Source: Patescibacteria group bacterium | Lineage (GTDB): Bacteria > Patescibacteriota > Patescibacteriia > UBA2591 > CALHIP01 | NCBI GenBank assembly: GCA_026417895.1 | Contig: JAOACJ010000006.1 | Coordinates: 1 to 32,992 of the forward strand | Reading direction: 5' to 3' | DNA length: 32,992 nucleotides | In this document: positions 2 to 28,049 of the stretch, one piece after another | Numbering within the stretch: position 1 is the stretch's first letter | Layout: each line of letters opens with the position of its first letter | The notes under the pieces: model-generated | Database searches by the model: none | The model's input: only the letters and a program-made list of their open reading frames with translations | Told to the model about the DNA's origin: nothing | Program-made: the position numbers and the translations under genes

Positions 2-286
2 CTGATTACTGATTTCTCAAAGACCTTAACCTTTCATGTTTTATCCGCCGAAAAGAAAGAAAAGAAGAAAGAGCAAAAAGAAGAAATAAAACTACCTGCT
101 GGCTGTCATAAAGTTAATCTTAATTGTGATCTTAATAAAAAGAATCAACAGAGAATCAATTTTGTTGACGTTTCTATTTTACTTTACAATTGGGGCCGGC
201 CAAAAAATAAAAGAGCTGATTTAAATAATGATGGTTGGGTCAATTATACCGACTTAAGCATTTTACTTTATTATTGGACCGGCTGA
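2..286 (+). CDS. C-terminal part of a dockerin-type domain protein (5' end outside window)
   Basis: An open frame runs from the window edge to a TGA at 284-286, giving 94 residues. After a Lys/Glu-rich linker (about residues 17-31) come two related repeats, each ending in an ILLYxW block: CDLNKKNQQRINFVDVSILLY and, 30 residues later, ADLNNDGWVNYTDLSILLYYW (segments shown overlap no further than this). The second repeat has the D-x-N-x-D-G-x-V-N-x-x-D calcium-binding loop of type I dockerins; the first loop is degenerate. A dockerin normally docks the protein to a cohesin module, and a cohesin-like gene starts 39 nt downstream. The catalytic or adhesive part lies outside the window, so the role of the whole protein is unknown. 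Dockerin-like assignment is by motif only. Confidence 0.75.
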   Translation: MITDFSKTLTFHVLSAEKKEKKKEQKEEIKLPAGCHKVNLNCDLNKKNQQRINFVDVSILLYNWGRPKNKRADLNNDGWVNYTDLSILLYYWTG

Positions 287-325
287 TAATATTTTAAAAG
301 CACTTAAAATAAATATAATAAAAAA

Positions 326-1258
326 ATGAAAAGAGGGGCGATAAAAAACTATAAAAGTATTTTTATATTTTTAATCTTTGTTTTTAGTCTTTTGTTTTTG
401 ATTTTTGATTTTTGTCAGGCTGCAACATTATATTTAGAACCCGCATCAGCCGAATATGGCGTCGGTGAGACTTTTATTTTAGAAAGTCGAATTGATTTAG
501 AGCCGGGTGAAAATATTAATATTGTTGAAGTTCATTTGCAATACCCGATCGAAATTTTAGAAGTTAAAGATGTCAGTTTTGGTCATTCTATTTTTAATCT
601 CATACCTCAAAGACCGATCATCAACCAAGAGCAGGGGATTATTTCGTTTGCCGGTGGAGTGATTGGCGGTTATACCGGTCGAATTCCAGGAGACCCAGGC
701 CAGAGTAATTTATTAGCAAAAATAATTTTTCATAGCCTTGCCACCGGTCTAGCGACAATTAATTTTCAAGAAACTTCTCGAGTTTTATTAAATGATGGTT
801 TTGGAACACCAACAAATTTAACCTTTAGGTCTGCTTCTCTTAAATTTTCGGCCCTTGAGGGTCCAAGGTTAGACTCTTGGCAAAAAGAGTTAGAAAAAGA
901 TCAAATTCCGCCCGAATTTTTTCAGCCAGAAATTGTTAAAATTGACGAAAGATACTATCTTGTTTTTTCTACGACTGATAAACAAACAGGCCTTGATTAT
1001 TACGAAATTTCAGAAACCAAAAAAGAAGGGAAAGAAAATTGGCGCAGAGGTGAAAGCCCATATCTTTTAACCGACCAAAGTCTTCAGAGTTTTATCAAGG
1101 TCAAAGCTATTGATAAAGCTGGCAACGAAAGGGTAGGGAAAATTTTCCCCCAGATAAAAAAAAGACGAATTAATCTTTTGACTTTGATTATTGCTTTTCT
1201 CGCAGCTATTTTTTCCCTTTTTATTTTGTTGAAAAAATTCTATCCTAAAAGATATTAA
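326..1258 (+). CDS. Membrane-anchored cohesin-like domain surface protein
   Basis: 310 aa. Residues 10-32 form a hydrophobic signal peptide or anchor ending near CQAA. Residues about 33-175 look like a cohesin-type beta-sandwich: LYLEPASAEYGVGETF opening, alternating hydrophobic strands, LLAKIIFHSLATGLATINF near the end. A second region (about 195-275) contains PPEFFQPEIV, a YYLVFSTTD strand and the VKAIDKAGNERVG motif typical of Ig-like surface repeats. Residues 286-304 are a C-terminal membrane helix followed by a basic tail, so the body should face outward and be held in the membrane. It follows a dockerin-bearing gene by 39 nt, suggesting a cohesin-dockerin pair. A TATAAT at 314-319 lies only 6 nt before the ATG, so a separate, nearly leaderless transcript is possible. 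Function beyond anchoring is not visible. Confidence 0.7.
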   Translation: MKRGAIKNYKSIFIFLIFVFSLLFLIFDFCQAATLYLEPASAEYGVGETFILESRIDLEPGENINIVEVHLQYPIEILEVKDVSFGHSIFNLIPQRPIINQEQGIISFAGGVIGGYTGRIPGDPGQSNLLAKIIFHSLATGLATINFQETSRVLLNDGFGTPTNLTFRSASLKFSALEGPRLDSWQKELEKDQIPPEFFQPEIVKIDERYYLVFSTTDKQTGLDYYEISETKKEGKENWRRGESPYLLTDQSLQSFIKVKAIDKAGNERVGKIFPQIKKRRINLLTLIIAFLAAIFSLFILLKKFYPKRY

Positions 1259-25439: not shown

Positions 25440-28049
25440 CTAATTTCTCTTTGGTCTAAATAGCCACTTACCAAATTCAATTAAAAGAAGATTGATTAAG
25501 CTCAAACCACCAAGGATCGACCAATCAATGAATCTCAGTGGTACGGTTTGAAGGAAATTCTGAAAAAATGGAATATAAAGCGCCAACAAAAACATTAAAA
25601 AGCCGAAAACAACACTTAAATTAAGAAAGGGATTGTCAAAAGGGTTATATTGCCAGATATTTTTCTTTAAATTTTTACAGGCAAAAACATAAAACATTGT
25701 TGTTAGACCAACGGCGACAAACATCATTGTCTGAGTATAAGCAAGATCCTTAGTTTTGTACCAAAAATATAAAAAGAAGTTAAATAGAATTAAATTAAAA
25801 AACATACTAACACCAAAGATTAAAAATTTTGTTTGACGATCTAAAATTGGCACTTTTAGACCCCGCGGCCTCTCTTTCATAACTTCAGGAGAGGTTTTTT
25901 CATAAGTTAAAGCCATAGCTGGGGGGCCGTCTTGAACAATATTAATCCATAAAATTTGACCGGGCAAGATTGGCAATGGTAGTCCAGCAAGTAAACTGCC
26001 AGCCACTAAAATAATTTCTGTAAAGCTGTTACATAATAAATAAAGCACAACTTTTTTGATATTGTCAAAAATGCCCCGGCCTTCTTTAATCGCCTCAACA
26101 ATGGTTTTGAAATTGTTATCAAGTAAAACAAGATCAGCTGTTTCCTTAGTTACATCAGTCCCGGAACCTAAGGCGATGCCAATATCGGCTGACTTAATAG
26201 CCGGCGCGTCATTAACACCGTCACCGGTCATAGCTACGACTTCTTTTTTCTTTTGTAAAAGGTCAACAATTCTGATTTTATGTTTTGGTTCGACTCGAGC
26301 AAAGACACTTACTTCATTGAGTTTTTGAGTCAATTGGTCGTCATCTAACCTATCTAGATCTCTGCCTTCTAAAATTTCTTTATTAGCCAGGCCAATTTCT
26401 TGAGCAATTGATTGAGCGGTCAATCGATGATCGCCAGTAACAATCACTGGTCTGATGCCGGCTTCTTGACATTCCATAATTGTCGCTCTTGCCTCTGCTC
26501 TTAAAGGGTCTTTAAGGGCTACTAGACCGACCAAAATTAAATTATTAACGTCATTAATTTTTAATTCTTTACTATCAGTAGGCTTATAAGCTATCGCCAG
26601 AACCCTTAAACCTTCTTCAGTGAGCTTTAGATATTTATTTTCTATTTCTTCTCTCTTTGTTTTAGTCAACACCTCTTCTCGCTGATTACCTCTCTCTAAA
26701 AAATTCGATAAAGACAAAATCTTTTCCGGCGCCCCTTTGACAAAAATAAAGTTTTGATATTTAGCATTTGACATTTGACATCGGTGGAGTGTTGCCATCC
26801 ACATTCTTTCTGAATCAAAAGGAATTTCAGAAAGTCGAGGACATTCTTGATGTAAATTTTTCCACTTATTAACCCCCTCTTTGTTAATTATTGCCAAGAC
26901 TAAAGATTTTTCCGTTTCATCGCCTTCAATCAGCCAATTTTCTATTTGATCTTCTGGATTTTCGACAATGAGACTATTACAGAGTAATCCAATCTTAAAA
27001 ATGAGATCGTTATTTTTATCAAAATTAATGATTTCAGAAAGACTCATTTTCCCCTCAGTCAAGGTTCCGGTTTTGTCGGAACAAATTGTTGTCACTGAAC
27101 CCAGTGTCTCCGCGGCTATTAATTTTCTTACCAAAGCTTTCTTCTTCAAAATTCTTTGCATTCCTGTTGCCAAACAAACGGTAATAGCAATTACCAAACC
27201 TTCCGGAACACCAGCTACCGCTAAAGCGACTGACGTTAAAAGCATTTCTTCTCCTTTGCGACGTGTAGTCAAGCCAAGAATAAATAGGCAAATAACTAAA
27301 ATGACAATGACCGAACCAATAACTTTGGCTAAATGAGTCATTTTTCTTTGAAGGGGTGTTTCATCTTCTCTCGTCTCTTTGATTAAACTAGCGATTTTGC
27401 CAAATTCAGTTTGAAAACCAGTTGCTATTACCAGAGCTTTTCCCTTTCCTCGACTGATAATCGTTCCTTGATAGACCATATTTTCCCGATCAGCTAAGAT
27501 AGTATCTTTAGATAATACTTCAATCTTTTTATTTGATGGTTTTGATTCACCAGTTAAAACTGCTTCCATTGTTTGTAGGTTATGACTTTCAATGACCCGC
27601 GCATCAGCCAAAACTATATCACCGGCCTCTAAAATTAAGATATCACCCGGTACAAGTTTTTCCGCTGAAATTAGATGTTCTTCTCCATTTCTTACCACCT
27701 TTGCTTTATGTTCAACCATTTTTCTGAGCTGATGAACGGCCCTTTCTGATTTTTCTTCTTGCCAATAACCAATAAAAGTGTTTAAAACAACCGCTACTAA
27801 AATAACAGACAAATTTTTCAAATCTTTTAAGAAGAAACAAATACCAACCGCCACTATTAGAACTATGATGAGGGGGTTTTTAAATTGTGATAAGAAAATC
27901 GTCAATTTGGTTAATCGTTTTGGTTCGGGCAATTTATTGAGACCATATTTTTTAGTTCTTTTCTCTGCTTCTTCAAAACTCAAACCAGACGCGGAAGTTT
28001 TAAAAAACTTGATTACTTCTTCAACAGAAAGATTGTGAAATTCTTTCAT
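25440..28049 (-). CDS. P-type cation-transporting ATPase, calcium-pump type (P2A)
   Basis: 869 aa. N-terminal cation ATPase domain (HNLSVEEVIKFFKTSASGLS), actuator loop TGES at 166-169, phosphorylation site DKTGT with D325, VKGAPE at 437-442 in the nucleotide domain, TGD at 538-540 and TGDGVNDAP at 608-616. Calcium-site residues of SERCA-type pumps are kept: E283 in VAGVPEGL (M4), N674 and E678 in CNSFTEI (M5), and N703 with D707 in WINIVQDG (M6). About ten membrane helices. It likely exports Ca2+ (or Mn2+) from the cytoplasm. Residues 422-436 (HRCQMSNAKYQNFIF) resemble the in-frame AT-rich repeat. Starts with a 4-nt overlap with recJ. The calcium specificity is inference from these residues. 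Confidence 0.93.
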   Translation of the reverse strand: MKEFHNLSVEEVIKFFKTSASGLSFEEAEKRTKKYGLNKLPEPKRLTKLTIFLSQFKNPLIIVLIVAVGICFFLKDLKNLSVILVAVVLNTFIGYWQEEKSERAVHQLRKMVEHKAKVVRNGEEHLISAEKLVPGDILILEAGDIVLADARVIESHNLQTMEAVLTGESKPSNKKIEVLSKDTILADRENMVYQGTIISRGKGKALVIATGFQTEFGKIASLIKETREDETPLQRKMTHLAKVIGSVIVILVICLFILGLTTRRKGEEMLLTSVALAVAGVPEGLVIAITVCLATGMQRILKKKALVRKLIAAETLGSVTTICSDKTGTLTEGKMSLSEIINFDKNNDLIFKIGLLCNSLIVENPEDQIENWLIEGDETEKSLVLAIINKEGVNKWKNLHQECPRLSEIPFDSERMWMATLHRCQMSNAKYQNFIFVKGAPEKILSLSNFLERGNQREEVLTKTKREEIENKYLKLTEEGLRVLAIAYKPTDSKELKINDVNNLILVGLVALKDPLRAEARATIMECQEAGIRPVIVTGDHRLTAQSIAQEIGLANKEILEGRDLDRLDDDQLTQKLNEVSVFARVEPKHKIRIVDLLQKKKEVVAMTGDGVNDAPAIKSADIGIALGSGTDVTKETADLVLLDNNFKTIVEAIKEGRGIFDNIKKVVLYLLCNSFTEIILVAGSLLAGLPLPILPGQILWINIVQDGPPAMALTYEKTSPEVMKERPRGLKVPILDRQTKFLIFGVSMFFNLILFNFFLYFWYKTKDLAYTQTMMFVAVGLTTMFYVFACKNLKKNIWQYNPFDNPFLNLSVVFGFLMFLLALYIPFFQNFLQTVPLRFIDWSILGGLSLINLLLIEFGKWLFRPKRN

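Follow-up and report, generated by a model that had tools for sequence, protein, structure and literature searches.

The window, that is, the whole stretch of 32,992 nucleotides analysed here, is the start of contig C6, from base 1, of a Patescibacteria genome of 649,900 bases (18 contigs, 98.5% complete). Its first two genes encode the end of a dockerin protein, referred to below as D, and a secreted, membrane-anchored cohesin protein, C1; their features are collected in the table. Because the window begins at base 1 of its contig, the reading frame of D is open at its 5′ end, and the remainder of the gene is found at the end of contig C2, on the minus strand, in the same genome. The last 141 bases of the reverse-complemented end of contig C2 are exactly the first 141 bases of the window, and as overlaps of that kind stem from assembly breaks, the two contigs are, judging from the sequence, very likely joined through D. 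Read across the overlap, D comes to 363 residues. A second genome of the genus (locus L055, genome G001) has a counterpart with 67% identity, and there the gene is contiguous, with no break.

Features of the D-C1 locus, in positions of the window
Feature	Position	Strand	Basis or remark
3′ end of gene D	2..286	+	94 aa in the window, reading frame open at the 5′ end; full protein 363 aa
Dockerin domain of D, 62 aa	98..283	+	Pfam match, own dockerin model, AlphaFold model
Dockerin repeat 1 loop, calcium-type, 6-residue insertion relative to the 12-residue form	116..169	+	alignments
Dockerin repeat 2 loop, DLNNDGWVNYTD, canonical D-x-N-x-D-G ... D	218..253	+	alignment, motif count
C1, secreted membrane-anchored cohesin protein, 310 aa	326..1258	+	reading frame, relatives, AlphaFold model
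C1 signal peptide, about residues 1-32	326..421	+	sequence, judged by eye
C1 cohesin domain	419..859	+	own cohesin model, AlphaFold, Foldseek, VIA
C1 OmpL47/Ig-like stretch	965..1129	+	weak family match, E 0.006, below cut-off
C1 C-terminal transmembrane segment (residues 280-307), then a short basic tail	1163..1246	+	transmembrane scan

D carries, by sequence, a signal segment and a stretch rich in cysteine (CGN...GEQCD), together with a glycine linker, Ig-like domains and the terminal dockerin. The earlier note had seen a dockerin-like double repeat at its end, and two dockerin-type repeats do close the protein (Pfam Dockerin_1, PF00404, E 8.8e-4), with a score of 19.9 bits that lies below the curated cut-off of 22.9. 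The family scan of the operon covered 65 of 97 selected proteins (X or stops occurred in two of the 97), and the best match to PF00404 among these 65 reached E 3.6e-11. Loop 2 of the window dockerin is canonical, while loop 1 carries, in the window and in near relatives, an insertion of 6 residues relative to the 12-residue form (13 in G018, as counted on the alignment); helices are placed at residues 22-30 and 50-60 in the AlphaFold model. The D-x-S-I motif occurs twice in 75 of 81 dockerins, that of the window included. The counterpart of D at L055 has a Big_6 Ig domain (E 8.5e-8). Neither D nor C1 showed an enzyme domain above cut-off; the GH43 match of C1 reaches only E 0.17. As for topology, 78 of 80 D proteins have a hydrophobic N-terminus and 76 of the 80 have no later transmembrane segment, so that D would be exported without a membrane anchor of its own.

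The cysteine-rich stretch occurs elsewhere in the genome too. It recurs, in the form CGN...EECD, in a large secreted protein (L139, 3084-5999; the match at C14:55836-55997) that has a PKD domain and four lamin-tail stretches, and this module of D is thus reused on a second surface protein.

In C1 a hydrophobic signal segment precedes a cohesin-like domain and a weak match to OmpL47, and a membrane helix lies near the C-terminus. Its match to the Pfam Cohesin family (PF00963) is weak, with E 0.08 and 11.9 bits in the scan of its own genome against a cut-off of 24.1, and the L055 cohesin, at 15.4 bits, falls below the same threshold. In direct searches of Pfam, NCBIfam and PDB sequences the window protein had no match to Cohesin; its identity is consequently drawn from its relatives and its fold. 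In the VIA comparison the best match is 6kgc_A, with Z 16.2 and an rmsd of 2.1 over 133 residues, and 49 of the 50 rows listed are cohesins, scaffoldins or such modules; 2o4e is titled only as a protein-protein interaction module, and the last row is a CLIPPER domain. Foldseek, run on the joint model of D and C1, gave 4dh2_C first (E 3e-10), and all 50 matches listed are cohesins, scaffoldins or cohesin-dockerin complexes by title. C1 is therefore, as far as the predicted fold tells, a divergent cohesin below the Pfam threshold, and the reading of this gene in the earlier note, a cohesin-like domain with a signal peptide and a C-terminal anchor, holds. The same topology is found at other loci: among 76 C1 proteins, 66 have a hydrophobic N-terminus and 74 a C-terminal transmembrane segment.

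C1 is not the only cohesin protein. A second one, protein C2, is as a rule longer than C1 and has the same features, with a hydrophobic N-terminus in 64 and a C-terminal transmembrane segment in 62 of 65 loci. It follows C1 in most loci of the class. In the window genome it lies away from C1, on the minus strand of contig C2 (L138, L006), about 14 kb before D and on the same strand as D; in G002 and G018 (L037, L038), two further genomes from the same order, it is found 6-11 kb upstream.

How would the two proteins meet? The AlphaFold input was an alignment of 139 rows, namely the window read-through (dockerin, linker and cohesin) and 138 rows from the loci of D relatives, 18 of which were also read-through pairs; the L058 cohesin row, cut by a contig end, was left out. 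In the alignment each kind of row fell on its own domain, dockerin on dockerin and cohesin on cohesin. The fused chain, made of 62 aa of dockerin, 45 aa of linker and 147 aa of cohesin, was modelled with a pTM of 0.83 and a pLDDT of 89.1, the dockerin part ranging from 85 to 96 in 10-residue blocks. By our own arithmetic, a freely moving dockerin would give a pTM near 0.6; since 0.83 was reached over domains of 147 and 62 residues with a weak linker between them, the two domains would have to be placed confidently relative to each other. The model, a prediction for one fused chain, implies that the dockerin of D would dock into the cohesin domain of C1. From the fold, the fused-chain model and the conserved gene order described below, a membrane-anchored cohesin that docks a secreted dockerin protein emerges, which supports the surface docking that had been suggested for the pair, and we consider it very probable that D and C1 are such partners. 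The structure prediction that the earlier note had proposed as a check thus gave a cohesin fold, not an unrelated one, and a fused chain whose pTM suggests a docked dockerin.

The gene order is conserved in other genomes. From a genome search with D alone, the best 80 of 330 relatives were retained; their titles, where named, are of the Patescibacteria type, save one labelled Methylomirabilis. Among these best 80 of 330, a cohesin gene lies downstream of D on the same strand in 78, and in 70 of those 78 loci the second cohesin gene (C2) comes next. The two misses, L080 and L111, are on contigs that end 55 and 208 bases past D. Within the first 20 relative loci, D stands before a cohesin gene in 16 (in L051 only at E 0.05), the exceptions being L036, L039, L052 and L054.

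In a wider survey of 285 genomes of the class, 109 are matched by the dockerin model (E 1e-3) and 99 by the cohesin model (E 1e-6). At a strict level, with D taken to E 2.1e-18, there are 73 D places in 66 genomes and, among the matches listed, at least 150 cohesin places in at least 72 genomes. At this level, again among the matches listed, 64 genomes have both, 2 have only D, 8 have only the cohesin and 211 have neither. The corresponding Fisher p of 5e-52 ignores relatedness, and the adjacency of D and the cohesin genes is the stronger fact: a cohesin match lies at most 1.5 kb downstream of 68 of the 73 strong D places, with a median of 108.5 bases between the domains. Reading the five exceptions raised this number to 69, as the seeming D-only genome G140 does have a cohesin downstream, just weaker than the matches listed, and the remaining four places are 6, 62, 340 and 600 bases from a contig end. 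All six misses, over the 80 loci and the 73 places, thus fall within 600 bases of contig ends. Of the eight genomes with a strong cohesin and no strong dockerin, four (G031, G077, G101 and G275) have a weaker dockerin match, in two (G162 and G211) the cohesins start at a contig end, and two (G062 and G219) are real exceptions. With a cohesin downstream at 78 of the 80 loci, and at 69 of the 73 places with a strong dockerin, the pairing of D and C1 is more than chance.

D and C1 are also part of a larger gene group. At the 64 loci with more than 2.2 kb of sequence upstream of D, two further families recur on the same strand: T, a secreted beta-sandwich protein, in 52 loci, and W, membrane-anchored, in 51, with both in 50, only one in 3 and neither, by family, in 11. 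W is found in 60 loci, in 56 of them directly before D, and a transmembrane segment is found in 59 of these 60 proteins. The window genome carries a W gene and two T genes ahead of D; the best match of its W is the W of L124 (E 6e-109), and its T proteins match family 5 with E 3e-87 and 1e-67.

What are T and W? One likeness is to the NCBI "Pam pilus" of CPR bacteria (NF058581, NF058579). The NCBIfam "Pam pilus system pilin subunit" is matched by 12 of the 65 operon proteins at E 0.01 or better, the best E to the pilin C-terminal model being 2.7e-45. When scanned singly, the T relatives of L080, L101, L102 and L100 match the Pam pilin, and for NF058581 the T of L102 is above cut-off (64.4 against 55 bits), with those of L080 and L101 just below. 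PamT is matched by 7 of the 65 proteins at E 0.01 or better (best E 1.4e-36) and, weakly, by the T relative of L102 (E 1.6e-4). The likeness does not extend to the whole operon, however: single scans of D, C1, C2 and W proteins gave no match to a Pam model, the T proteins of the window genome have no NCBIfam or Pfam match above cut-off, Pam pilin included, and PamT was not found in the window genome. An identification of PamT with W or C1 was dropped, as none of the singly scanned W, C1, C2 and D proteins matched it, and NF058580, guessed to be a third Pam model, proved to be an unrelated lipase family. No paper on the Pam pilus was found in the open-licence literature.

A second likeness is to the WxL clusters, in which WxL and WxLIP proteins go together. 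W is membrane-anchored, and the WxLIP_PGBD family, proposed to bind peptidoglycan and WxL (PMC10599100), is matched by 6 of the 65 operon proteins at E 0.01 or better (best E 3.9e-7). The W of the window genome gave no match to this family. In contrast to the WxL clusters, a WxL domain is absent from the families listed for the 65 operon proteins (25 of 29), and cohesin and dockerin genes are added.

D and T are alike at their mature N-termini. In the window genome, mature D begins with SNLSTSVSVVVTV and mature T with TNLGTSVTVANAA; the sister genome has a different type of T, with ATIEATVTAQN, and its D has ATIWATIKISV. Over 53 loci the mature N-termini of D and T score 18.2 within the same locus against 16.4 for other pairs (p 0.0004, and p 0.0037 within T type), a test made with a crude signal-peptide cut and no relatedness correction. 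The control pairings D-W, D-C1, D-C2, C1-T and W-T gave no such same-locus agreement. The gain is small in the commonest T type (31 loci; 16.94 against 16.43) and larger in the other two.

The predicted fold of T is compatible with a fibre subunit and with other Ig folds. The AlphaFold model of the L055 T is a beta-sandwich (pLDDT 84.9) with an N-terminal extension that is strand-free and of lower confidence. Foldseek placed the TasA fibre 8aur_A first (E 6.4e-4), the only match below E 0.001, followed by the type 1 pilus rod and PapE of the P pilus; with VIA, non-fibre Ig-like chains came first (Z 8.4), and fibre subunits were not favoured over other Ig folds. The likeness to TasA fibres is thus a weak fold match. 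In Bacillus subtilis, TapA has a complete Ig fold and donates an N-terminal strand at the start of the TasA filament (PMC10151520). D would be a membrane-clipped analogue of TapA as it is described there, with a hypothetical strand exchange and, unlike TapA and TasA, an added dockerin for membrane anchoring.

Collectively, these data lead to a preferred reading, to which we give a probability of about 0.6: D and C1 are a dedicated, non-cellulosomal pair, and D is most likely the basal adaptor of a surface fibre, clamped to membrane cohesins. C1 and protein C2 would be held in the cytoplasmic membrane through their C-terminal helices; the dockerin at the C-terminus of D would clamp into a cohesin domain, that of C1 and perhaps also that of the longer C2; the N-terminal strand of D, like that of T, would complete an adjacent T subunit in the donor-strand manner; and the clamp between dockerin and cohesin would in this way tie the T fibre to the membrane. 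Taken by itself, the role of D as the basal adaptor is plausible, at even odds or a little less. More tentatively, the assembly may be a donor-strand-type pilus in which the basal D is clipped into the membrane cohesins in a calcium-dependent, reversible manner that replaces anchoring by an usher or a sortase. Attachment to a host, raised in the earlier note, may be a function, as the operon around the pair hints at a fibre on the cell surface.

The same docking evidence (fold, joint model and gene order) would apply equally to a surface-retention pair with no fibre, in which C1 and C2 keep D, an adhesin with Ig domains or an envelope protein, at the membrane, and T and W are a separate, S-layer-like or WxL-like neighbour system. 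The Big_6 domain on the L055 D and the WxLIP_PGBD matches in the operon fit this alternative, as do the 11 of 64 loci that have D and cohesin genes with no recognised T and W. By a regular-expression sorting of the N-termini, which looks wrong by eye for L065, L108 and L109, D carries a different N-terminal domain in eight of these 11 loci but in just 1 of the 53 where T or W is present. This distribution fits a strand made for T; it also means that the clamp is used with other modules and that the pair of D and cohesin is not always part of a fibre. Against a pair that merely retains D at the surface speak the presence of T and W together upstream of D in 50 of the 64 loci with room for them, the position of W directly before D in 56 loci, and a D N-terminus that tracks that of T. 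We consider this alternative unlikely, if still a serious one.

Far less probable is that both domains are degenerate and have lost binding, their order being kept through co-transcription only. The dockerin and the cohesin are both under their Pfam cut-offs and loop 1 of the window dockerin is altered, as such decay would have it, but the paired D-x-S-I motifs are kept in nearly all dockerins, the joint model is confident, and D and the cohesins closely co-occur in the 285 genomes. Least probable of all is a minimal cellulosome or scaffoldin-like system collecting enzymes on the surface, for which the cohesin and dockerin modules are present, since the 650 kb genome has one dockerin place (with the Pfam model at E up to 1, and likewise with our own model) and two cohesin proteins, C1 and C2, with one cohesin match each, 59 of the 66 strong-D genomes have a single strong D, and neither D nor C1 has an enzyme domain above cut-off. 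The collection of further dockerin-bearing proteins, which had been recommended, accordingly yielded this one place only, and scaffold assembly in the cellulosomal sense, also entertained at the outset, is not supported.

The pair of D and C1 can be set beside known cohesin-dockerin systems. With the type I pairs of clostridial cellulosomes (4dh2, 1ohz) it shares the predicted cohesin beta-sandwich and a dockerin with two calcium-type loops, the first of them altered here by its insertion; it differs from them in being one dedicated pair with one cohesin match per protein, a membrane helix instead of a scaffoldin, and no enzyme domain found. The Archaeoglobus fulgidus cohesin 2xdh is likewise non-cellulosomal and matches C1 with a VIA Z of 15.3; the cohesin and dockerin genes of Archaeoglobus are presumably neighbours. 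ANME archaea have cohesins and dockerins outside cellulose breakdown, in proteins that are variable and partly scaffoldin-like (PMC9012536). In contrast to the proteins described there, the Patescibacteria have the fixed order D-C1(-C2), commonly behind T and W.

A search of the open-licence literature by title and start of abstract found no description of a dockerin-cohesin pair in Patescibacteria. The parts are known already; the combination in this group was not found described. For the way in which these bacteria hold on to hosts, a conserved surface operon with a clamp of a known, strong type is a concrete candidate. It is present across many lineages of Patescibacteria, it can be tested with recombinant proteins alone, and it would extend the biology of cohesins and dockerins from enzyme scaffolds to the possible anchoring of fibres.

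The surroundings of the operon offer a few more observations. The gene immediately after C1 in the sister genome encodes a P-type ATPase (L055, 5648-8233, plus strand); a gene that resembles it by eye lies in the window at 25440-28049 on the minus strand, 24 kb off, and its displacement to the other strand points to a rearrangement beside the operon. At L107, L113, L130 and L133, a cohesin-matching protein of 163-173 residues is encoded on the minus strand, opposite the downstream end of the operon. Small genes lie inside or beside the operon in the window genome (contig C2:981-1385 and C2:6987-7358) and at L057, L063, L071, L083, L089 and L093, and we take them to be four-helix-bundle-like and GIY-YIG-like. 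Genes of these two kinds stand at times between W and D or between D and C1, as if inserted, and in the window genome a small gene of the four-helix-bundle kind sits between W and D.
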